Assembly (NCBI GenBank): GCA_031291475.1
Contig: JARLIY010000046.1
Location: forward strand, 62,001-126,000
Source of the DNA: Xanthobacteraceae bacterium
Lineage (GTDB): Bacteria; Pseudomonadota; Alphaproteobacteria; Rhizobiales; Xanthobacteraceae
Length of the DNA: 64,000 bases
Reading direction: 5' to 3'
Made by a program: the position numbers and the translations under genes. Within the stretch, counting starts at the first letter, position 1, and every line of letters starts with the position of its first letter. The notes below the pieces were generated by a model. It had not been told where the DNA came from. It was given only the letters and a program-made list of their open reading frames with translations, and did no database searches. Below, piece after piece: positions 45,188-57,371 of this stretch.

Positions 45188-45853
45188 CTAAGCCAGCAGT
45201 TTGCCGGGTTCTTCAAGCTGTTGCCGCAGCGTCTCGAGAAAGCGCGCGGCGTCGGCGCCGAACACCACACGATGATCGCAGGCGAGCGTGAAAAAGGCGC
45301 CCCGCGGCCGCGAGGCCGCGACCGAGAGGATCGCCGACGCGCCGATGGGAACGATCGAGTCGAAAGCCTCGACCACGAAAAATACGCCGAGGTCGCTCAG
45401 ATAAAACGTCGCGCCGCTATACTCGGCCGGCGCCAACCGCCGGCTTTTGACCTTCTCGCGCAATCCGCTCCAGTCCTTCGCCAGTTCGGCCAGGGACCGG
45501 CCCGTCGCATCGCGCAAAACCGGCGTGATCAGCCCATCGCCGTTGTCGACGGCAATGCCGATGTCGACGCGCTCGCGGCGCGCCAGCCCGTCCGGCGTAT
45601 AAGCCGCGTTGAACAAGGGATGCGCGACGATGGTAAGCGCGCAGGCCCGCGCCAGGAGCAGCGTCAGCGATTGCTGCCGCTCCCGTGCCGCTCTCACCAA
45701 AGATTCCAGCGGCAATTGCGCGGTGACCCGGAACGTCGGAGCTGCCGCACTCGCGATCATGTTGCGGGCGACGGCCTCACGCAAGCTGGAGGCGCGCTCA
45801 ATTCGATCGGGCAGCCCCGCCGCGAGCGCTTTCAACGCCGGACTTGCGACCAT
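45188..45853 (-). CDS. 2-oxoacid dehydrogenase E2-like catalytic domain, lacking the active-site Asp
   Basis: A 221-residue protein equal to the acyltransferase core of dihydrolipoamide acyltransferases, from LREAVARNMIASAAAPTF to the end. No lipoyl or subunit-binding domain is attached. The catalytic H-x3-D-G motif reads DHRVVFGAD, with Phe in place of Asp, so acyl transfer is probably impaired. The frame is open to 46039 but that region overlaps the ybaK-like gene; I use the ATG at 45853 (45952 is possible). An intact E2 of the same family lies at 55918-57117. It is probably a decaying paralogue or a repurposed scaffold. Confidence 0.7.
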   Translation of the reverse strand: MVASPALKALAAGLPDRIERASSLREAVARNMIASAAAPTFRVTAQLPLESLVRAARERQQSLTLLLARACALTIVAHPLFNAAYTPDGLARRERVDIGIAVDNGDGLITPVLRDATGRSLAELAKDWSGLREKVKSRRLAPAEYSGATFYLSDLGVFFVVEAFDSIVPIGASAILSVAASRPRGAFFTLACDHRVVFGADAARFLETLRQQLEEPGKLLA

Positions 45854-46022
45854 CTCATCCGTCACCAGTGGATCATGCCCGCTGTATCCTCCGCTCTGGC
45901 CGCGAGGTGTAAGTTGCAAATATTTTATGTTATCATTTTTTCCTTTGCCCATCCCAGCGGCCGCGTTCGCAAATGGGATGCGACAGCAAGGAAAACATTT
46001 GAGGCCAGGCAGGAGGCAGGCT

Positions 46023-46493
46023 ATGGGTATTGCAACCACTCTCGCGCAGTATCTTGTCGATCGCGACGTTGCATATAAGCTAGTGCCGCATCCTCACACA
46101 GAGACCGCATCGGCAAGCGCTGCAGCTAGCAAGGTGCCGGCTGACAGCGCTGTTAAGGCGGTCGTCCTCAAAGGAGGAGACGGGTTCATTCTCGCGCTGC
46201 TTCCAGCGACGCGCCACATCCAGTTTGACGAGCTCCGGCGAATGCTTGGCGCTGACGTGGACATCGCCAATGAGGAGCAGGTTGAGACGCTCTTTCTTGA
46301 TTAAGAGCCCGGTTCAGTGCCCGCGCTTGGCGCCGCGTACGGGCTTAATGTGGTGGTAGACGACAGCTTGGCCCAGCAGCCTGATATCTACTTCGAGAGC
46401 GGTGACCACACCAATCTAGTTCATATCAGCGGGACAAGTTTCCGGAAGCTGATGACGGATGCCCTACATGGGCGCTTTACCGGACGCGCTTGA
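46023..46493 (+). pseudogene. YbaK/aminoacyl-tRNA deacylase-like gene with in-frame stop
   Basis: A strong ribosome binding site (AGGAGG) precedes the ATG at 46023. The first 93 codons encode a YbaK/prolyl-tRNA deacylase-like domain (VLKGGDGFILALLPATRHI). A TAA at 46302-46304 stops translation after LFLD. The same frame then continues for 62 codons as a good match to the rest of the domain (EPGSVPALGAAYGL, VVVDDSLA, YFESGDHTNLVHISG) and ends at 46493. It is therefore a nonsense-mutated gene, or needs read-through. The family hydrolyses mischarged tRNA in trans. Confidence 0.8.
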
Positions 46494-46732: not shown

Positions 46733-46814
46733 CGTTCGATTGAGGGAGGTGCGGAGTCATGAACAGCTTTTGGCGTTCGATTGAGGGAGGTGCGGAGTCA
46801 TGAACAGCTTTTGG
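46733..46814. repeat. 41-bp tandem duplication covering the cstA ribosome binding site and start codon
   Basis: Two perfect adjacent copies (46733-46773 and 46774-46814) each contain GAGGGAGGTGCGGAGTC, ATG and AACAGCTTTTGG. Since 41 is not a multiple of three, the first ATG is out of frame with cstA. Confidence 0.95.
46759..46803 (+). CDS. Possible 14-residue leader peptide created by the duplication
   Basis: The first copy of the duplicated start region opens a short frame, MNSFWRSIEGGAES, which ends in a TGA overlapping the real cstA ATG (ATGA). It has the same ribosome binding site as cstA. It would be translationally coupled to cstA if used. No regulatory codon run is present, so its effect is probably on initiation only. 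Confidence 0.45.
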   Translation: MNSFWRSIEGGAES

Positions 46815-48716
46815 ATCGTTATCCTCAGCGTGTTGACCGTTTATTTGGCCTACACCCTGTACGCCAAACGCATCGACCGGAACGTCATCCAGCCTGACGC
46901 CAAACGGGCGACGCCGGCGCGCATGTACATGGACGGTGTCGACTTCATGCCGACCAGCCGGAACGTCCTCTTCGGCTATCATTTCAAGGCGATCGCGGCC
47001 GCAGGGCCCATCGTGGGACCGATCACCGCTGCAAATCTTTGGGGGTGGTTCCCTTCGTTGGCTTGGCTGATCCTGGGCGTCAGCTTCATCGGCTGGGCGA
47101 GCGACTACTCCGCCATCATGGTCGCGGTGCGCAACGACGGCAACAGCCTGTCGGCGATCGCGCACCGGCTGATCGCTCCCCGCACGCGCACGATCCTGTT
47201 CATATTCATCTTCTTCTACCTGATGCTGCTGGCCGGCGCGTTCATCGGAATCCTGGCGGCCATCCTGTCGGCGCGTCCGGACGTGCCCTTCGGCATTGTC
47301 ATGCTCGGCCTGATGGGGCTTCTCGCCGGCCAGATGATGTACCGCTGGAAGATGGGCATTACCGCCGTCACGTTCCTCGTCGTCGCCATTACGCTTGGCG
47401 CCATGGCGCTCGGACCCTGGGGGCAGCATTCGGGCGCGGGCGGCGCGCTGGTGCAAGGTCCGGTGGCGTCCGCCGTGGCATGGGTGAACGACAAGGTCGA
47501 CAGCATTAGTGGCCGCACGGCCCTCATTGCAGTCCAGGATCCGACCATGGCTGATCCGAGGATTCCGGCGCCGCGCGCGGACGGCACGCGTCCGACCACC
47601 CCCGCGTATGACGCGGTCACCGGTCAGCTCAAGACGCTGCCTAATTACCTCTTCTGGATGGTGTTCCTGTTTGCCTTTAGCTACCTCGGGGCGAATCTAC
47701 CGATCTGGCGCTACGCGCAGCCCGTGGCCTATATCGGCTTCTGGATCATGCTGATCACGATTGTCCTCAGCGCGGTGGGAATGGTGGCCGCGCCGCTCCT
47801 CGGAACCAAGGATGCGGCGGGCAATCTTATCGGCGCGTTCGCGCTGCCCGCCGTCAAGGACCTCGGCTTCGGGATCGTCGCGGGCCAGGCATGGCAGCCG
47901 CTGTGGCCGATGCTGTTCGTGACTATCGCGTGCGGCGCCATCTCGGGCTGGCACTCGCTCGTCGGTTCGATAGGGACCGCGCGGCAGCTCGAATACGAGA
48001 CGGACTGCCTGCCCGTTGGCGCAGGCGCGATGTTCGGAGAGAACACGCTGGCGCTGCTGTCGCTCACCGCCGTCTCCATCGCCGGGGCCGGCGGCGGCGG
48101 CGGCCGGTTCGCGGTGGGCGTCGGCAAGCTGGTGTACGCTGGTACCTTCGGGCTCATCCCAGAGATCTACGGCACCGCGCTCGGGTTCGGTACGTTCGTG
48201 ATAATCGTGTTGACGGTAACCGTACTGGTGTTCCGTGTGATGCGCGTGACGCTCACGGAGTGGATCGGCGACGCCATTCCGGTCGTGCGCAACATGCACG
48301 TGTCGAGCATGATCGCGATGGTGCTCACGGCCGCGCTCGTGCTCACCGGCACATGGGTTTACCTCTGGCAGATGTTTGGCGCTTCCAACCAGCTGATGGC
48401 GGCCCTGAGCCTGCTCGTGGTGGTGGTGTGGCTCAAATCGGAGAAGCGCAACCCGACCTACGCCCTGCTGCCGATGATCTTCATGTACGTAACCACGCTG
48501 GCGGCCACTGCCGTCACCGCGCGGAACCTCTACGTGACGATCGCAGCGAACCCGAAGATGACGGGGCTGCCGGTGGCGGGCGCGTGGGCTATGATCGCGG
48601 TCTCCGTGCTCTTGTTCGTGGCGGCCGTCCTTATCGGGTGGGATGGGTACAAAGCCTACCGCCGTTATCACGCGACTCCCGGGCCGGGGGTCCCGCGTTC
48701 GGTGCTTGCGGAATAG
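46800..48716 (+). CDS. cstA: CstA-family carbon starvation/pyruvate transporter
   Basis: A 638-residue membrane protein with about 16 hydrophobic segments. CstA motifs NVLFGYHFKAIAAAGPIVGPITAA (residues 55-78) and ISGWHSLVGSIGTARQLEYE are present. CstA and BtsT of E. coli import pyruvate and peptides under starvation. No small YbdD partner is adjacent. An FNR/FixK-like box and a tandem-duplicated start region precede it. Its company of ArsA-like ATPases and, further on, a pyruvate-dehydrogenase-type operon points to a pyruvate-related module (inference). Confidence 0.92.
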   Translation: MNSFWIVILSVLTVYLAYTLYAKRIDRNVIQPDAKRATPARMYMDGVDFMPTSRNVLFGYHFKAIAAAGPIVGPITAANLWGWFPSLAWLILGVSFIGWASDYSAIMVAVRNDGNSLSAIAHRLIAPRTRTILFIFIFFYLMLLAGAFIGILAAILSARPDVPFGIVMLGLMGLLAGQMMYRWKMGITAVTFLVVAITLGAMALGPWGQHSGAGGALVQGPVASAVAWVNDKVDSISGRTALIAVQDPTMADPRIPAPRADGTRPTTPAYDAVTGQLKTLPNYLFWMVFLFAFSYLGANLPIWRYAQPVAYIGFWIMLITIVLSAVGMVAAPLLGTKDAAGNLIGAFALPAVKDLGFGIVAGQAWQPLWPMLFVTIACGAISGWHSLVGSIGTARQLEYETDCLPVGAGAMFGENTLALLSLTAVSIAGAGGGGGRFAVGVGKLVYAGTFGLIPEIYGTALGFGTFVIIVLTVTVLVFRVMRVTLTEWIGDAIPVVRNMHVSSMIAMVLTAALVLTGTWVYLWQMFGASNQLMAALSLLVVVVWLKSEKRNPTYALLPMIFMYVTTLAATAVTARNLYVTIAANPKMTGLPVAGAWAMIAVSVLLFVAAVLIGWDGYKAYRRYHATPGPGVPRSVLAE

Positions 48717-48731
48717 GCGGGCCAGATGGTT

Positions 48732-49364
48732 TCAGTCCAGCGCGCACTCGGCGAGCGCATGCACGGCTTCGAAGAAATCGCGCGCGGTCTGCCGCTGATT
48801 GGGGAGGGAGACATGAATCTGGAAGTGGGGCTCGGTGCGGCGCACCGACAAACGCTTGACCGCCACTCCGGCGCGCCGGACGAGTTCCAAGAGCACGTCG
48901 GCATGTGCGAGCGCCTCGATGCTCGCGTGATGCACGACCAAGCTACCGGGAGCCGCGGCTTGGCGCACCAGCCACTCTGGCGGCACGCGCCGAAGCGCGT
49001 CGCCAGCGGACCAGGTCACGGGATCGAGTGCTTCGAACTCGACTTGCGGGGCCCCGCGCAGCACGCCGCGGACGATGAGCGTGTCGCGGCGGCCGCGGAT
49101 GCGGCCGAGCGCCCACATCCAGGGCGCATCGCGCGCCTCGAGGAAGATAACGAGCGTAACGCTGGCGAATGGGACCTTGGCGTCGCGGATCACCATCTCA
49201 ACCGCGGTCGAGCCCAGCCAGCGCACGGTGGTGCGCCCGCCGAGCACCGGCAGGCCGCCCTGCATCCAGTGCATAAGCAGGCGGCCCCTACGGACATTCC
49301 AGATCGTGCCGGCGGCAAACCAGGCAACGAGCGCAACCGCGGCAACAGCGATGACTTCCGTCAT
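48732..49364 (-). CDS. Unknown membrane-anchored protein
   Basis: A 210-residue protein with one N-terminal membrane helix (about residues 3-22), then a soluble domain of mixed alpha/beta character (VEMVIRDAKVPFASVTLVIFLEARD; final HFQIHVSLPNQ). I recognise no family. It is the only minus-strand gene in an otherwise plus-strand stretch. It is convergent with cstA (15 bp apart) and divergent from the small protein gene at 49410. Its N-terminal anchor would place the domain in the cytoplasm or periplasm; the sequence does not decide. Confidence 0.65.
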   Translation of the reverse strand: MTEVIAVAAVALVAWFAAGTIWNVRRGRLLMHWMQGGLPVLGGRTTVRWLGSTAVEMVIRDAKVPFASVTLVIFLEARDAPWMWALGRIRGRRDTLIVRGVLRGAPQVEFEALDPVTWSAGDALRRVPPEWLVRQAAAPGSLVVHHASIEALAHADVLLELVRRAGVAVKRLSVRRTEPHFQIHVSLPNQRQTARDFFEAVHALAECALD

Positions 49365-49409: not shown

Positions 49410-49661
49410 GTGCTGCGCGAGTTCATTTACGGCATGACCAGCTATGAGTTCGTGCAGCAGGCGCTGGAAATGCGCGCCTCAATGGATAGGCTGTTCATGG
49501 TCGGCGTGTTCGGCGACATGCTCGGCGTGCCGATCCTGCCATCGTACTACGGGCTGCGCCTGCTGCCTTGGGTCGTGCCGGAGATCGAGGCGTGGAAGCG
49601 CGAAGTTCTCCGCGAGCGCGAGTTTGGCAGCAGCCACGAGCATCACCTGCACGGATTGTGA
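49410..49661 (+). CDS. Small conserved protein, paralogue 1 of the ArsA-pair cluster
   Basis: An approximately 83-residue protein, counting from the GTG at 49410 (ATG 49434 would lose the conserved REFIYG segment). It aligns with the next gene from WTRVLREFIYGM on; I count about 42 identities in 74 positions. The shared core is RASM-x2-LF, GD-x-LGVPILP-x-YY-x-LRLLP-x-VVP. This is a hydrophobic hairpin-like stretch, possibly membrane-inserting or a client helix. The start is uncertain since no good ribosome binding site is near. It belongs to the cstA-ArsA group. Confidence 0.65.
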   Translation: MLREFIYGMTSYEFVQQALEMRASMDRLFMVGVFGDMLGVPILPSYYGLRLLPWVVPEIEAWKREVLREREFGSSHEHHLHGL

Positions 49662-49666
49662 GGGAA

Positions 49667-49951
49667 ATGGCTATGACCGAAGAAATAAAAGCAGAAGCGA
49701 AGAAGAGTTGGTTAGACGTTGTCCGAGAAACTATTTACGGCATGGCCGCGCACGACATGAGCCGCGCCGCGCTGCGCACGCGTGCGTCGATGGAGCACCT
49801 CTTCATCCTGATCACGATGGGCGACCTCTTGGGCGTCCCCATCCTGCCGCCGTACTACAGCTTGCGCCTGCTGCCCTACGTCGTGCCGCAGATTGCGACG
49901 TGGAAGCGCCGCATGTTGCGCGAGAAAGACGTCGCGGACACGATGTTCTAG
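49667..49951 (+). CDS. Small conserved protein, paralogue 2 of the ArsA-pair cluster
   Basis: A 94-residue protein (ATG 49667, or 49673 with better spacing to GAGGG). The N-terminus is charged, followed by WLDVVRETIYGM and the hydrophobic GDLLGVPILPPYYSLRLLPYVVPQI core, then a basic tail (WKRRMLREKD). It is a clear tandem paralogue of the preceding gene, 5 bp apart, and lies 9 bp before the first ArsA-like ATPase gene. A hydrophobic peptide next to GET3-like ATPases suggests a membrane-protein client or an anchor for them (inference). No known family was recognised. Confidence 0.75.
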   Translation: MAMTEEIKAEAKKSWLDVVRETIYGMAAHDMSRAALRTRASMEHLFILITMGDLLGVPILPPYYSLRLLPYVVPQIATWKRRMLREKDVADTMF

Positions 49952-49960
49952 GGGGCGGCG

Positions 49961-50932
49961 ATGCGGCTCAAGGACGTGCTGCTGCAGCATCCTGAGCGCC
50001 GGTACATCATGTTCGGCGGCGGGGGCGGCGTTGGCAAGACCACTTTCTCCGCAGCAACCGCCTACTGGCTCGCGAGCCAGGGCAAGAAGGTGCTCGTGTT
50101 CTCGGTGGACCCCCAGGCGTCGCTCACCGACATCTTCAAGCGCGACATTTTCGGCAAGGGGCCGGTGGAAATCATGAAAAACCTCTGGGCCCAGGAGGTC
50201 GACGCGGACAGTCACATCCGGGAATATCAGCAGGAGGTCCGCCAGAAGATCCTCGACATGTACGGGTTGCCTGCCGTACCCGAGGAGATCGAGAACTACA
50301 TCCAGGCAGCGAGCGCCGAGCCGGCGATGGAGGAAAGCGCAATTTTCGACGCCGTGGTCGACGTGGTGATGCAGGGCGATTACGACTACTACATCTACGA
50401 TCTCGTCCCCCTCGGTCACGCGCTCTATTACCTGTCGATGGCCAAGGTCTACGACGAGTGGATCAACAAGATCACTAAGCTGCGCGAGGAAATGCGCGAG
50501 TACGAGGAGATGGTGAGCCGGCTCCGGCACGAGAAGGAGTCCGAGCAGGACCAGATCCTCCAGGAGCTGCTCTACATCAAGAACCGCATCAACACCTCGG
50601 CCGGCATCCTCACGGACAAGACGAAGACCGGCTTCTTCTTCGTGGTGATCCCGGAAGCCATGGTCATCAATGACACGCAGAAGGCGGCGAAATTGTTTGC
50701 GCAGTTCGACGTGCCGGTCGCCGGCTACGTGGTTAACCGGGTCATCCCGCACGAGCTGCTGGACCAGAACATCCCGGAATACCTGCGCCGCCGCATCGCC
50801 ATGCAGGACCAGCACATGCGCGACTTGCAGACGGCGTTCGGCGACCAGGTTTTAGCCTCAGTGCCCGAGATGGAGCACGATGTCACGGGGCTGCCGATGA
50901 TCGAGAAGCTGGCCGCAATCATGTTCGCTTGA
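49961..50932 (+). CDS. ArsA/GET3-family ATPase A, lacking the signature lysine
   Basis: A 323-residue P-loop ATPase of the ArsA/Get3 group. The deviant Walker A reads FGGGGGVGKT (residues 18-27), so the intersubunit signature Lys is Gly21, while the P-loop Lys26 is kept. The switch-I Asp is present (Asp50 in SVDPQAS). Switch II reads YDLVPLGHALYYL in place of DTAPTGHTLRLL. A charged helical segment (about 168-210) replaces the TRC40 insert or client groove. It is followed 13 bp later by a paralogue with the complementary defect, so a heterodimer is likely. Confidence 0.88.
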   Translation: MRLKDVLLQHPERRYIMFGGGGGVGKTTFSAATAYWLASQGKKVLVFSVDPQASLTDIFKRDIFGKGPVEIMKNLWAQEVDADSHIREYQQEVRQKILDMYGLPAVPEEIENYIQAASAEPAMEESAIFDAVVDVVMQGDYDYYIYDLVPLGHALYYLSMAKVYDEWINKITKLREEMREYEEMVSRLRHEKESEQDQILQELLYIKNRINTSAGILTDKTKTGFFFVVIPEAMVINDTQKAAKLFAQFDVPVAGYVVNRVIPHELLDQNIPEYLRRRIAMQDQHMRDLQTAFGDQVLASVPEMEHDVTGLPMIEKLAAIMFA

Positions 50933-50945
50933 ACGGGGAAACGCC

Positions 50946-51992
50946 GTGCCAGAGATCACAATGCCGATGGGTCGCTATCTGCGCGAGCACCCTACGTTGA
51001 AGTACTTCTTCTTCGGCGGCAAGGGCGGCGTGGGCAAGACCGTCTTCGCCGGCGCCGCCGCCATCGGACTCGCCCGGCAGGGACGCCGGACGCTGCTCGT
51101 ATCAACCAATCCCGTGCACAGCCTGACGGGTTTGTTCGGCTACGACATGCTCGGCAAGCACGTCCCCGTCGAGGGCGTGCCCAACCTCTGGGCCTTTGAG
51201 ATCGACACCCGGGAGAGCATCGAGCGCAGCAAGGTGGAGATCCGGGAGAAGATTCGCTGGTTTCTCAAGTTCGCCGATATCACCACCAAGGCCGACGACT
51301 TCGTGGAGTCGGCGACGATGAACCCGGCGTTCGAAGAATCGGCCATGTTCGAGAACATGATCGATCTCATGTTCAAGAATGAATACGACGTCTACGTCTT
51401 CGACACGGCGCCCACCGCCAATGCGCGGCGCCTGCTCGGCATGTCGTCGGTCTACTCGCTTTGGGTCAACAAGATGCTCAAGAGCCGCGAGGAGGCGCGC
51501 ACGCTGCGGGAGATGCTCTCCTTCACGAAGAAAAAGGAGACAGACCCGCTGATGGAGTACCTCGTCTCCTTCCGCGACCGGATGGAGCACGCGCGCAAGC
51601 TTCTCACCGACCCCACACTCACGTCATTCTTCTTCGTGACGCTGCCGGAGGCGCTGCCGATCGCGGTAGTTACGCGCTTCATCCAGTGGTTCAAGGACTT
51701 CGGGATTCCCGTTGGCGGCGTTCTGGTCAACATGGTCATCGACTCCGCATCGCTCGGTCCGAACGCCGCCGTGTTCGTCAAGAACCGCGTGGCCATGCAG
51801 CAGGAGCACATGCAAACGATCTGGCGGGAGTTCGACGACAGCGTGCGCGCCATCGTGCCGCTGTTCGATGCCGAGGTCCGCGGCGTGCCGATGCTCCAGC
51901 GTCTGTGCGACGCGATCTTCGCGGCCGACGGTGCAAAGCCTGCGCAGAGTGCCGGCGTCGGCACACCGCACGAAGTCGCGGCGCGAACGTGA
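50946..51992 (+). CDS. ArsA/GET3-family ATPase B, signature lysine present but switch-I Asp replaced by Asn
   Basis: A 348-residue paralogue of ATPase A, starting at GTG (50946; ATG 50961 possible). The deviant Walker A GGKGGVGKT contains the signature Lys26 and P-loop Lys31. Switch I reads STNPVHS, so the catalytic Asp (Asp57 of yeast Get3) is Asn55. Switch II DTAPTANARRLL is canonical. A helical insert (about residues 155-215) is rich in Lys, Arg and Glu. The C-terminal tail (last 20 residues) looks disordered. It ends the cstA/ArsA plus-strand group; the next operon begins after an FNR/FixK-like box. Confidence 0.88.
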   Translation: MPEITMPMGRYLREHPTLKYFFFGGKGGVGKTVFAGAAAIGLARQGRRTLLVSTNPVHSLTGLFGYDMLGKHVPVEGVPNLWAFEIDTRESIERSKVEIREKIRWFLKFADITTKADDFVESATMNPAFEESAMFENMIDLMFKNEYDVYVFDTAPTANARRLLGMSSVYSLWVNKMLKSREEARTLREMLSFTKKKETDPLMEYLVSFRDRMEHARKLLTDPTLTSFFFVTLPEALPIAVVTRFIQWFKDFGIPVGGVLVNMVIDSASLGPNAAVFVKNRVAMQQEHMQTIWREFDDSVRAIVPLFDAEVRGVPMLQRLCDAIFAADGAKPAQSAGVGTPHEVAART

Positions 51993-52135: not shown

Positions 52136-53889
<1,754 letters not shown>

Positions 53890-53893
<4 letters not shown>

Positions 53894-54894
53894 CCGCACC
53901 AGCCGACAAGCCGCGCCTGTCGCGCGAGCACATGTTGGATCTCTTGAAGCAGATGATCCGGATCCGCCGCTTCGAGGACAAGTGCGCCGAACTCTACACG
54001 CAGGAAAAAATCCGCGGTTTCCTGCACCTTTACAACGGCGAGGAAGCGATCGCGGTCGGCGTCATCCCGGTGCTGGAAAAGCGTGACCGAATTGTCGCGA
54101 CCTATCGCGAGCACGGACATGCGTTGGTCCGTGGCATACCAATGACGACGGTATTGGCCGAGATGTACGGGAAGCAGGAAGGTTGCAGCCGCGGACGTGG
54201 TGGCTCGATGCATTTGTTCGACCGTGCCACCAATTTCCACGGCGGTAACGCCATCGTCGGCGGTGGTTTGCCGCTCTCGATCGGGCTGGGGCTGGCCGAG
54301 CACATGCGGGGGAGCGACGTCGTCACGGCTTGCTTCTTCGGCGACGGTGCAGTGGCTGAGGGAGAATTTCACGAAAGCATGAATCTGGCTGCGCTCTGGG
54401 AACTGCCGGTGCTGTTCGTGTGCGAAAACAATCTGTATGCCATGGGAACGGCATTGGCTCTTTCGGAATCGGAAACCGACATTCAGCGCAAGGCGTCGTG
54501 CTACCGGATAGCATCCGAGGGCGTCGACGGCATGGACGTGGTTGCCGTCGAGGCCGCCGCCCGCCGGGCGGTCCACGCGGTGAGGGAGAGCCGCAAGCCC
54601 TATTTTCTGGAATGCCGGACCTACCGGTTGCGCGCCCATTCGATGTACGACGCACAGCTTTATCGCGACAGGGCTGAGGTCGACGCTTGGCGCCATAAGG
54701 AGCCGATCGTGCGCTTCCAGGGATGGCTCGAGGCCAATCACATGCTTCATCCGGATGATGTGCCCCGCATGGAAGCGGACATCGATGCCGAGATCGCCGA
54801 GGCGGTCGCCTTCGCCGAAGCAGGGACCTGGGAGCCGGTGGAGCAACTCACGCGCTTCACTTATGCGGAAAGCGCCGTCCAGGCCGATCGGTGA
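53890..54894 (+). CDS. 2-oxoacid (pyruvate/acetoin) dehydrogenase E1 alpha subunit
   Basis: A 334-residue thiamine-diphosphate enzyme subunit with the [20 protein letters not shown] ... ENN motif (about residues 153-185) that binds Mg-TPP, and the RYLR-like phosphorylation loop region [11 protein letters not shown]. It decarboxylates pyruvate or a related 2-oxoacid with E1 beta and acylates the lipoyl arm of E2. It overlaps both neighbours by 4 bp. Pyruvate or acetoin specificity cannot be told from sequence by eye. Confidence 0.92.
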
Positions 54895-55907
54895 GAGCCA
54901 TGCAGCAAGAGACGGTCCGGGCCGAAGCGATTGAGCTCACCTACCGCGATGCGGTGCGCGAGGCCATTCGCGAGGCGATCAAGCGTGACGACCGCGTTTT
55001 TCTGGTGGGCGAGGATATCGGCCGCTACGGGGGTTCCTATGCCGTGACGAAGGGGTTGCTCGCCGAACTCGGCCCCGAGCGGATTCGCGATGCGCCTCTC
55101 TCCGAGTCGGGATTTACCGGTGCCGGCATCGGCGCGGCGATGGCTGGCATGCGCCCGATCGTTGAATTGATGACGGTGAATTTCAGCCTGCTCGCGCTCG
55201 ATCAGATTCTCAACACCGCGGCGACAGTGCGTCACATGTCGGGAAACCAGTTCGGCGTGCCGCTGGTCATCCGCATGGCGACCGGCGCCGGCCGCCAGGT
55301 TGCCGCTCAGCATTCGCACAGTCTTGAAGGTTGGTATGCACATATTCCCGGAATCAAGGTAGTGGCGCCGGCGACGATCGAGGATGCGCGTGGCATGCTT
55401 TGGACCGCTTTGCAGGACCCCGATCCAGTGCTGATTTTCGAAAACGTCATGCTCTACAACATGACCGGCAAGCTCGCCGCCAACGCCGGGCCGGTCGATA
55501 TCGACCGAGCGGCTGTCCGCCGCCCCGGCCGCGACGTTTCGCTCATCACCTATGGCGGCTCGCTATGGAAGACCATCGAGGCAGCAACGGCGCTTGCCGC
55601 CGAGAGCATCGAGGCGGAGGTGATCGACCTGCGCAGCTTGCGGCCGCTTGATGACGCGACCATCATGACATCAGTCGCCAAAACCCGGCGGGCGGTCATT
55701 GTTGATGAAGGCTGGCGTAGCGGCAGCCTGGCGGCGGAGGTCGGCATGCGCATCGTCGAGCAGGCGTTCTGGGCCCTCGACGCGCCGATCGGTCGCGTCT
55801 GCAGCGAAGAGGTGCCGATTCCCTATCCCAGTCATCTGGAAAAAGCCGCGATCCCGCAAGCGCCCAAGATCGTCGCGGCGGCAAAGGCCGCGCTGGGACG
55901 ATCATAA
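54891..55907 (+). CDS. 2-oxoacid dehydrogenase E1 beta subunit
   Basis: A 338-residue subunit (GTG at 54891 overlapping the E1 alpha stop, or ATG at 54900). It has the transketolase pyrimidine-binding region ([40 protein letters not shown]) and the C-terminal transketolase domain ([17 protein letters not shown]). It completes the heterotetrameric E1. It lies 10 bp before the E2 gene. Confidence 0.92.
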
Positions 55908-55917
55908 GGGGACGGAC

Positions 55918-57117
55918 GTGGTCGACTTCCGCATGCCCTCCCTTGGCGCCGATATGGAGGCCGGCACGCTGGTGGAATGGCTGGTCAAGCCCGGCGATTG
56001 GGTTAAGCACGGCGATATTGTCGCGGTGGTCGAGACGCAAAAGGGCGCAATCGAGATTGAAACATATCAATCTGGCCAGATCGAAAAGATCCTGGTAGAT
56101 CTCCACAGCAAGGTCCCGGTCGGCACCCCGCTGGCGCAGATTCGAACCGAAGACGAAGCCAAGCCTACCGCGGCGGCGGCCGCTCCGCCGCCGGCAGCGC
56201 CGGCTGTCCCGCTCGCAGCCCCGCCCGTTGTGCGGGCGCCCATTGCGCCGCCATCGCCACCGCCCGTGGTGCCCCGCGCCGCGGCGCGTGCGCCGGTGTC
56301 ACCGGCCGCTCGGCGGCTCGCCGAACAACGCGGCATCAATCTTTCAACGGTAACGGGTAGCGGTCCCGCTGGAGCGATCACCTATGCTGACGTCGAGCGC
56401 CGTCTCGACGAGGCCGTCGCCCCCCCTGAAAAAAAGCGCGCGCTGTGGCTTGATATCGAGGCGATGCGAACGGCCATCGCCGCCGCGATGACGCGATCGA
56501 AACGAGAGATCCCCCATTACTATCTGGAGCATCAGGTCGATGTGACGGCGTGCGAGCAATGGCTGACGCAGAAGAATACAACTCTGCCGCCAGAAAACCG
56601 CCTGTTATTCGGGGTGCTCCCAGTCAAGGCGGCCGCCTTGGCGGCGCGCCGCTTTCCAGCCTTCAATGGGTTCTATCGCGACAACAAATTCGAGCCGGCG
56701 CAGGCGGTGCATGTCGGCGTGGCGATTGCCATTCGCGGCGGCGGCCTGGCGGCGCCGGCGCTGCACGATAGCGATCAGCTACCGCTCGACGAACTGATGA
56801 GCCGTATGCGCGACCTAGTGCAACGCACACGCTCCGGACGCATCCGCAGTTCGGAAATATCCGATCCGACCATCACTGTTTCGAGCCTTGGGGAGCGCGG
56901 TGTCGAAGCGTTGTATGGCATCATTTATCCGCCGCAAGTGGCGATCATCGGCTTCGGCAAGGTAGTGGAACGGCCATGGGTCGTCGACGGCGCCATCGGA
57001 CCGCGGCCGGTCATTACCATCACCCTCTCCGGCGACCATCGGGTCAGCGATGGACATGCCGGCGCGTTATTCTTGGCCGAAATCGGCAAGCTCTTGCAGG
57101 AGCCAAACAAGCTATGA
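55918..57117 (+). CDS. 2-oxoacid dehydrogenase E2 (dihydrolipoamide acyltransferase)
   Basis: A 399-residue E2 starting at GTG (55918) after AAGGGGACGG. Domain order: lipoyl domain (residues 1-75, lipoylated Lys in ETQKGAIE), an Ala/Pro linker, the subunit-binding domain (about 125-165, [15 protein letters not shown]) and the acyltransferase core (about 180-399) with the intact catalytic motif DHRVSDG. There is no E3 gene in the operon, so a dihydrolipoamide dehydrogenase encoded elsewhere is needed. The ACP gene is coupled to it by an ATGA overlap. Confidence 0.92.
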
Positions 57118-57371
57118 ACGAAATCGACATTCGCAAAGTGTTGCAGGAAGAACTCAATAACATCGCGCCAGAAATCGATATGGCGAGTCTCGATCCGGCC
57201 TCCGATCTGCGCGAGGCTCTCGACATCGATTCCATGGACTTCCTGAACTTCGTCACCGCCGTCCATCATCGCCTCAGTCTCGATATCCCCGAGGTCGACT
57301 ATCCGAAACTCGTCACGCTCGACGGGGCAGTCGCCTACATCGAGGCAAAACTCAGAACGAGAAAGACATGA
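57114..57371 (+). CDS. Acyl carrier protein-like protein at the end of the pdh operon
   Basis: An 85-residue acidic four-helix carrier protein. The phosphopantetheine site is Ser in DIDSMDFLNF (residues 38-47). It is translated with E2 through an ATGA overlap, which is unusual, because carrier proteins are not part of known pyruvate dehydrogenase complexes. It may accept the acyl group from the E2 or from the ligase (inference). Nothing suggests a fatty-acid synthase nearby. Confidence 0.88.
   Translation: MNEIDIRKVLQEELNNIAPEIDMASLDPASDLREALDIDSMDFLNFVTAVHHRLSLDIPEVDYPKLVTLDGAVAYIEAKLRTRKT

Follow-up and report, generated by a model that had tools for sequence, protein, structure and literature searches.

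The subject of this work is a tandem pair of ArsA/GET3-like ATPases, here called A and B, encoded at positions 49961 to 51992 of a 64,000-nucleotide stretch of DNA from a Xanthobacteraceae bacterium (GenBank assembly GCA_031291475.1, contig JARLIY010000046.1, positions 62,001 to 126,000 of the forward strand; hereafter the window, whose own numbering is used throughout). The pair follows genes for a CstA-family transporter and for two small proteins, S1 and S2; it is genuine, asymmetric, and well conserved, and its operon type is already known. In the window, A has lost the intradimeric signature Lys and retains the switch-I Asp, while B retains the Lys and carries Asn in place of the Asp; comparison with homologues indicates that B acquired its Asn long ago and has it without exception and that the Gly in A is recent. 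On balance we favor the reading that A and B supply the ATPase of a CstA–CstX–ArsA transport module, as a heterodimer that hydrolyzes only on A and is coupled via S1 and S2 to CstA, and the idea of such a split site has a crystallized precedent.

ATPase A (49961..50932, + strand) is 323 residues long and ATPase B (50946..51992, + strand) 348, and the two are 38% identical. Residues and codons of both were re-read from the window DNA by script, and the open reading frames, residues, codons, and coordinates given in a preliminary description of this DNA proved exact. The P-loop of A reads FGGGGGVGKT, with Gly21 (codon GGG, 50021..50023, + strand) at the signature-Lys position, and its switch I reads SVDPQAS, with Asp50 encoded by GAC (50108..50110, + strand). 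In B, the P-loop GGKGGVGKT places Lys26 (AAG, 51021..51023, + strand) at that position, and switch I, STNPVHS, has Asn55 (AAT, 51108..51110, + strand) where the Asp is expected. The deviant Walker A motif GKGGhGK[ST] with its signature Lys is accordingly present in B and absent from the window A, and a sequencing error is an improbable source of Gly21, because the identical GGG codon is found in two betaproteobacterial genomes (L042 and G444). Both proteins are placed in the GET3/ArsA family by their profile scores, with 241 and 222.8 bits for A and B against PF02374 (cut-off 24.3) and 225.8 and 218.5 bits against TIGR00345, GET3_arsA_TRC40 (cut-off 135), and the predicted structure of A (predicted local distance difference test score, pLDDT, 81.5) finds its top matches in the archaeal Get3 structures 3ug7 and 3zq6. 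Neither reaches the profile of the ArsA arsenite pump, TIGR04291 (100.5 and 115.9 bits, cut-off 650), or the NCBIfam equivalogs of BagA and BagB (48.8/44.6 bits for A and 51.9/40.4 for B, cut-offs 400/521). With no Cys in A and one in B, the pair has too few for the three essential cysteines of ArsA as named in PMC2963123, and the CXXC zinc clasp of the Get3 dimer interface is absent.

We surveyed 111 loci with patterns that fixed the neighboring residues and left both test positions free. A was readable in 87 loci and B in 96, and merging identical sequences gave 68 distinct A and 78 distinct B proteins; the loci without a reading mostly ended with their contigs, the B of L061 lacked its N terminus, and the few sequences that escaped the patterns were read by eye (A of L182–L185) or separately (B of L170). 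All 78 distinct B proteins have Lys and Asn, whereas 65 of the 68 distinct A proteins have Lys (codon AAG or AAA) and Asp and three, all from Pseudomonadota, have Gly and Asp. Within single loci, 67 distinct pairs could be read, 65 with Lys/Asp in A and Lys/Asn in B and two with Gly/Asp in A and Lys/Asn in B; in the third Gly genome, G444, A lies on one contig (L122/L186) and B on others (L090/L106). Reading the first 64 loci from an alignment whose reference row is the window gave consistent results, with 45 pairs of the first kind, two of the second (the window and L042), two unpaired proteins with Lys and Asp, and 16 partial readings; L100 and L101 are unpaired ATPases bearing both residues. 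Four deeper Chloroflexota pairs (A 43–45% identical), which stand beside cstA and a small protein, likewise have Lys/Asp and Lys/Asn. A adjoins B wherever the contig continues, in loci assigned by title or placement to Chloroflexota, Acidobacteriota, Pseudomonadota, Bathyarchaeota, and Actinomycetota.

The residue asymmetry between A and B is thus real, with an Asp in A and a Lys in B that know no exception among the distinct sequences. Since Asn is found in every B, Gly in three of 68 A proteins, and Lys in the four deeper A proteins, B appears to have lost its Asp early and A its Lys late. A reciprocal ancient loss is rejected by the Lys of those 65 A proteins, and the co-occurrence of the two changes in homologous pairs, which the preliminary description had proposed as a check, was not borne out. 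The same description had named homologous pairs retaining both residues in both proteins as evidence against its proposal; A does retain both in 65 of 68 cases, and B never does, so that this evidence tells against the proposal in part.

A precedent for residues divided in this manner is BagAB, whose chains Rv3679 (BagA) and Rv3680 (BagB) are both contained in each of the PDB entries 6bs3, 6bs4, and 6bs5. In the printed alignments, BagA reads GKGGTGKS, with the Lys kept, and has Glu in switch I, and BagB reads GAGGVGKT, with Ala for Lys, and keeps the Asp. We collected Bag-like loci from one actinobacterial class as the best 12 of 63 listed matches (in 39 of 60 genomes), all of them below the BagA cut-off, a label that rests on the trees described below and on pair L135, which matches 6bs3_A and 6bs3_B first. 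The BagA-like proteins keep the Lys in 12 of 12 loci, with Asp in six and Glu in six at switch I, and the 11 BagB-like proteins (the twelfth is cut off) all keep the Asp and have another residue for the Lys, Ser in 10 and Thr in one. Complementary losses, claimed for the pair in the preliminary description, therefore hold for the window, L042, and G444, where the residues are divided as in BagAB and the dimer itself is predicted, and do not extend to the A/B family as a whole.

Rows for a first family tree and for a wider tree, which adds single ATPases from Actinomycetota and omits some of the A/B rows and six others, were chosen by motifs containing a test residue (DPQASL for A, NPVHSL for B; Lys for BagA and the single ATPases, Ser/Thr for BagB). 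Residue counts within these groups follow from that choice and were not used; the Bag counts given above come from the printed open reading frames. The first family tree recovers A as a monophyletic group, and likewise B and A+B, with 100/99 at all three nodes, which indicates that A and B are sister paralogues made by one duplication. The Bag-like proteins form a clade apart from A+B (100/93 in the first family tree and 98/98 in the wider tree); because the former carried a warning of long branches meeting, an independent origin of the A/B and Bag-like families is likely, not proven. Descent of A+B from an Actinomycetota single ATPase found no support, as the two are not sisters in the wider tree, with its weak backbone (88/75).

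The history of the Lys loss is confined to one Pseudomonadota clade, which holds the three Gly-bearing A proteins at 100/100 (95/93 with the N-terminal part of the G444 A included) and has L050, whose A carries Lys (AAG), as its sole non-Gly member. Unmasked, the trees join window A to L042 (100/90 in the first family tree, 98/87 in the wider tree). With the two variable columns of the P-loop masked, window A no longer joins L042 apart from L050 (76/74 for the full length and 75/72 for the N-terminal part), and the trees of B place the window with L050 (100/95 in the first family tree, 99/95 in a separate B tree). A single Lys-to-Gly event was withdrawn on these grounds; the Gly arose either once, followed by reversal or recombination, or twice, and only the Pseudomonadota clade is firm.

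From gene content, residues, and phylogeny we infer a heterodimer, a division of labor between its sites, its coupling to CstA, and a substrate. The intradimeric Lys crosses the dimer interface and the switch-I Asp positions water (PMC10248533), in agreement with the cross-dimer role that the preliminary description had given to this Lys. In an A:B heterodimer, which the preliminary description predicted to be obligate, only the nucleotide bound to A would be hydrolyzed, with the Asp of A acting in cis and the signature Lys of B in trans, and B would retain its ATP unhydrolyzed, like the trap form of Get3 D57N, and so hold the pair together. An ATP-bound structure of Get3(D57N) is on record (9ns5), and the D74N variant of TRC40 is described as presumably ATPase-deficient, the corresponding Get3 mutant being reported to bind tail-anchored proteins constitutively (PMC6633398). 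The ATPase cycle would energize or gate uptake by CstA through S1 and S2, with pyruvate or a related nutrient as the probable substrate; in Escherichia coli, constitutive pyruvate uptake needs CstA and the small protein YbdD (PMC5847655). The pair would have arisen by one duplication, the Asp loss in B would predate the divergence of the known lineages, and A would later have lost, once or twice and so far only in a Pseudomonadota lineage, the Lys that serves the already silent site of B. That the co-crystallized chains of BagAB show equal logic supports this reading.

Several observations weigh against it. With only one or two events, the loss of the Lys on the matching side could be chance. 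Most A proteins retain their Lys although the site on B looks silent, which implies that it still does something; it probably stabilizes ATP on that silent site, and losing it, as in the window, would then amount either to decay that is tolerated or to one more step. Switch II, overlooked in the preliminary description, is a third difficulty. Single ATPases from the same gene neighborhood have DTAPTGHT in 10 of 10 cases, whereas the switch II of A (DLVPLGHA in the window, 50399..50422, + strand, read from the sequence) differs from it by four of its eight residues in 66 of the 68 distinct A proteins, the remaining two being one other variant and one unreadable sequence, and the deeper Chloroflexota A proteins are likewise degenerate (DMPPFGHG), so that the site on A may be weak, slow, or dead. 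The earlier claim of one composite ATP site thus stands as regards the unbroken Asp of A and Lys of B and falls short in ignoring this degeneracy. In addition, the switch-II change from GH to AN falls in the subunit without Asp, B (DTAPTANA, 51402..51425, + strand, read from the sequence), whereas the GH-to-RN change of the Bag-like pairs falls in the subunit without Lys, a crossed arrangement that leaves the parallel with BagAB incomplete. Finally, not every cassette has a cstA gene close by. Of the 31 whose contigs extend 4.5 kb or more upstream of A, 23 have it within 12 kb, on the downstream side in L054 and L087, and no cstA was found at that distance in the other eight (L058, L064, L065, L067, L073, L079, L080, and L081).

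In the window, cstA (46800..48716, + strand; PF02554, E = 4.1e-96) is followed by a gene on the opposite strand (48732..49364, − strand) for a 210-residue protein with an N-terminal hydrophobic stretch, which has homologues near 17 of the 31 cassettes. S1 (49410..49661, + strand; 83 residues from a probable GTG start) is a paralogue of S2 (49667..49951, + strand; ≈94 residues, from an ATG at 49667 or 49673; positions 49670–49948 were used in searches), and an S2 homologue precedes A wherever the contig reaches far enough. Size and place suggest that S1 and S2 correspond to CstX and the 210-residue protein to CstY. S2 is a distant relative of the cory-CC-star family NF041419; the window S2 scores 36.2 bits, below the cut-off of 80, and all 52 aligned S1/S2 relatives match the family at E ≤ 0.01 (best 2.4e-11). 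A third small CstX-like paralogue lies downstream of B in the Chloroflexota-type loci L052 (12032–12289), L059 (11958–12242), and L062 (6649–6918). The S1 of several paired systems has an acidic, His-rich C-terminal tail (e.g., DHEYHLHGL), and the small proteins of the Actinomycetota loci L204–L213 end in Cys-Cys-stop in 10 of 10 cases and may do a job related to that of the His-rich tail. Downstream of B, genes for an acyl-CoA synthetase and for the E1 alpha, E1 beta, and E2 components of a 2-oxoacid dehydrogenase (52136..57117, + strand, by domain scans) are followed by a small acyl-carrier-like open reading frame after E2 (within 52136–57371) and by a VIT1-family membrane protein (PF01988, 57700–58425). 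In L050 the cassette is preceded by relatives of the synthetase and E1 genes, and in L103 B is directly followed by an E2-like match; such genes beside the cassette in the window, L050, and L103 fit the pyruvate theme. Among the 11 neighboring open reading frames scanned, a subset of those in the window, no family was named as ars.

When the A+B alignment was used in one scan of genome contigs, 64 loci emerged, mostly from Chloroflexota and then Acidobacteriota, with few from Pseudomonadota and one from Bathyarchaeota; seven of them (L097–L099 and L102–L105) hold only a partial B. The bathyarchaeal locus, L087, on a contig titled Candidatus Bathyarchaeota archaeon, has the same A/B residues, with cstA downstream on the other strand. 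At E ≤ 1e-80, A is found in 35 of 301 genomes of the phylum Chloroflexota (31 at ≥68% identity and four at 44–45%) and in eight of 247 Acidobacteriota genomes; at E ≤ 1e-60, among 300 genomes from the order to which L042 belongs, it is found in two, namely the genomes that contain L042 and L050. Closer to the host, 398 genomes of its phylum, the window's own included, gave only six other ATPases at E ≤ 1e-20 (27–32% identity), and 40 other relatives gave no second A-like pair at E ≤ 1e-3, their matches being short or to fused ArsA. The leuCD region of the same contig (42937–44971) has long DNA matches of 72–82% in six of 19 congeners (one in two pieces), which makes contamination of the bin less likely; weaker matches in the remaining congeners may be paralogues. 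At 45188–46039 (− strand) lies the catalytic domain of an E2-type acyltransferase, with neither a lipoyl nor an E3-binding domain reported for it; the DNA there resembles that of three congeners as well (73–75%). Viral scans gave no relative, and a plasmid scan gave four ArsA-type matches for A (28–29%) and none for S2.

Protein B occurs in two of 248 genomes of the host family, one of them the window's own, and the cassette looks foreign to this family. This rarity, and the restriction of the Gly to three genomes and one or two events within one Pseudomonadota clade, would suit neutral drift in a horizontally acquired copy, which would make the Lys-to-Gly change mechanistically uninformative. 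The Gly is, however, common to the window and two betaproteobacterial genomes whose A proteins are 90–91% identical, with frames open to the contig ends, and we regard drift as a possible but rather doubtful account.

Unlikely, to our mind, is a pair in which neither site hydrolyzes usefully and A/B serves not as an engine but as a scaffold or sensor whose binding of ATP or ADP gates CstA; the switch II motifs of A and B, both unlike that of the single ATPases, and the want of one catalytic residue in each window subunit are what such a pair would lead one to expect, but an inactive pair would have no need of an Asp in A and a Lys in B that vary in none of the 68 and 78 distinct sequences. A Get3-like targeting factor that delivers single-helix S1/S2 or CstA to the membrane would explain the nearness of the predicted fold of A to archaeal Get3 and the small, moderately hydrophobic proteins encoded directly upstream, with best 19-residue Kyte–Doolittle means of 1.59 (S1) and 1.47 (S2). 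These values are borderline, though, and the stretch in S2 stops ≈31 residues before the C terminus, which weakens a tail anchor without excluding it; the model of S2 is of middling confidence (pLDDT 75, predicted template modeling score 0.38) and has no convincing match among PDB folds, nor did the sequence search give one, and the zinc clasp of Get3 is missing. Targeting is on these grounds quite improbable. Least credible is a catalytic homodimer of A in most lineages, with B as a separate, non-hydrolyzing regulator and A crippled in the window by its Lys loss, for while 65 of 68 distinct A proteins do retain both residues, A keeps to the side of B in all five groups of organisms named above and is otherwise well conserved in the Gly lineage (90–91% identity), hardly the look of a decaying gene.

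Known systems resemble the favored A:B heterodimer in different respects. Operons of the CstA–CstX(–CstY)–ArsA type were described by Castillo and Saier in 2010 (PMC2963123), with the proposal that ArsA energizes CstA and that CstX is the linker, and adjacent ArsA pairs were listed for Pyrobaculum arsenaticum and Symbiobacterium thermophilum. Like the window, these operons have single-domain ArsA proteins of ≈330 residues, CstA, a CstX of ≈90 residues, and at times a CstY of ≈210 residues, and two CstX paralogues occur in "Par," taken as P. arsenaticum, as do S1 and S2 here. The window has cstA in the cluster and single-domain ArsA homologues of 323 and 348 residues, and S1 and S2 fit a CstX of ≈90 residues with a single membrane helix in size and place, their hydrophobic stretch being borderline. 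For single-domain proteins, the Asp of the SXD motif, which we take as switch I, "can be substituted only by N"; these ArsA proteins are said to be possible homodimers, and the parts of that paper covered here do not tie the Asn to one member of a pair. In the open-access literature we found no experiment on an ArsA-type motor driving a non-arsenic carrier, as proposed in 2010.

The single-ATPase system of Actinomycetota shares with the window the trio of cstA, small protein, and ATPase. NF041419 is found in 12 of 119 genomes of this phylum, and in 10 of the 12 loci fetched the cory-CC-star gene lies beside one ATPase, with cstA in nine of them and only 540 bases upstream of the gene in the tenth; the other two loci read cstA–S1–S2–A, one with B and the other ended by its contig. 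The 10 single ATPases all have GKGGVGKT and STDPAHS. Unlike the window, this system has one canonical ATPase, with Lys, Asp, and DTAPTGHT, and one small protein ending in two Cys, and its ATPase does not come out as sister to A+B in the tree, whose backbone is weak. Two ArsA domains thought to drive a carrier are also known from the ArsA pseudo-dimer and from the single-domain ArsA pair that accompanies Acr3 in Alkaliphilus metalliredigens (PMC2963123), but these are arsenic systems; in the fused ArsA of the host genome and of two others of its order, both halves read GKGGVGKT and DPA.

Both BagAB, with its complementary losses (6bs3), and the adjacent ArsA pairs in cstA operons printed in 2010 run counter to the initial statement that no two-gene system of this kind had been described. 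What seems to be new against the open-access literature is the fixed Asp-to-Asn change in one CstA-linked member, the late Lys-to-Gly change in its partner, and the way in which the pair mirrors BagAB. If the favored reading is correct, these proteins are natural separation-of-function variants of the Get3/ArsA mechanism, which raise the questions of how residues are assigned to sites and why a silent ATP site is retained for so long, and they allow one to ask if a carrier for something other than arsenic can be driven by a motor of the ArsA type, with S1, S2, and CstA as named candidate partners. Tentatively, one may go further and suppose that the CstA-linked pair and BagAB, as heterodimers of the ArsA/Get3 type, arrived independently at a single composite ATP site, to which one partner gives the catalytic Asp and the other the cross-reaching Lys, with the residues of the second site lost in opposite order, Asp first in A/B and Lys first in BagAB, and that CstA thereby became an ATP-driven or ATP-gated nutrient importer with a lopsided motor. 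BagAB, co-crystallized in three entries, resembles the window pair, a predicted heterodimer, as two ATPases with complementary Lys and Asp losses. It differs in that its Lys loss is general and its Asp loss partial, whereas in A/B the Asp loss is fixed and the Lys loss rare, in that it forms a separate clade in the trees, and in that its switch-II changes fall on the opposite subunit.

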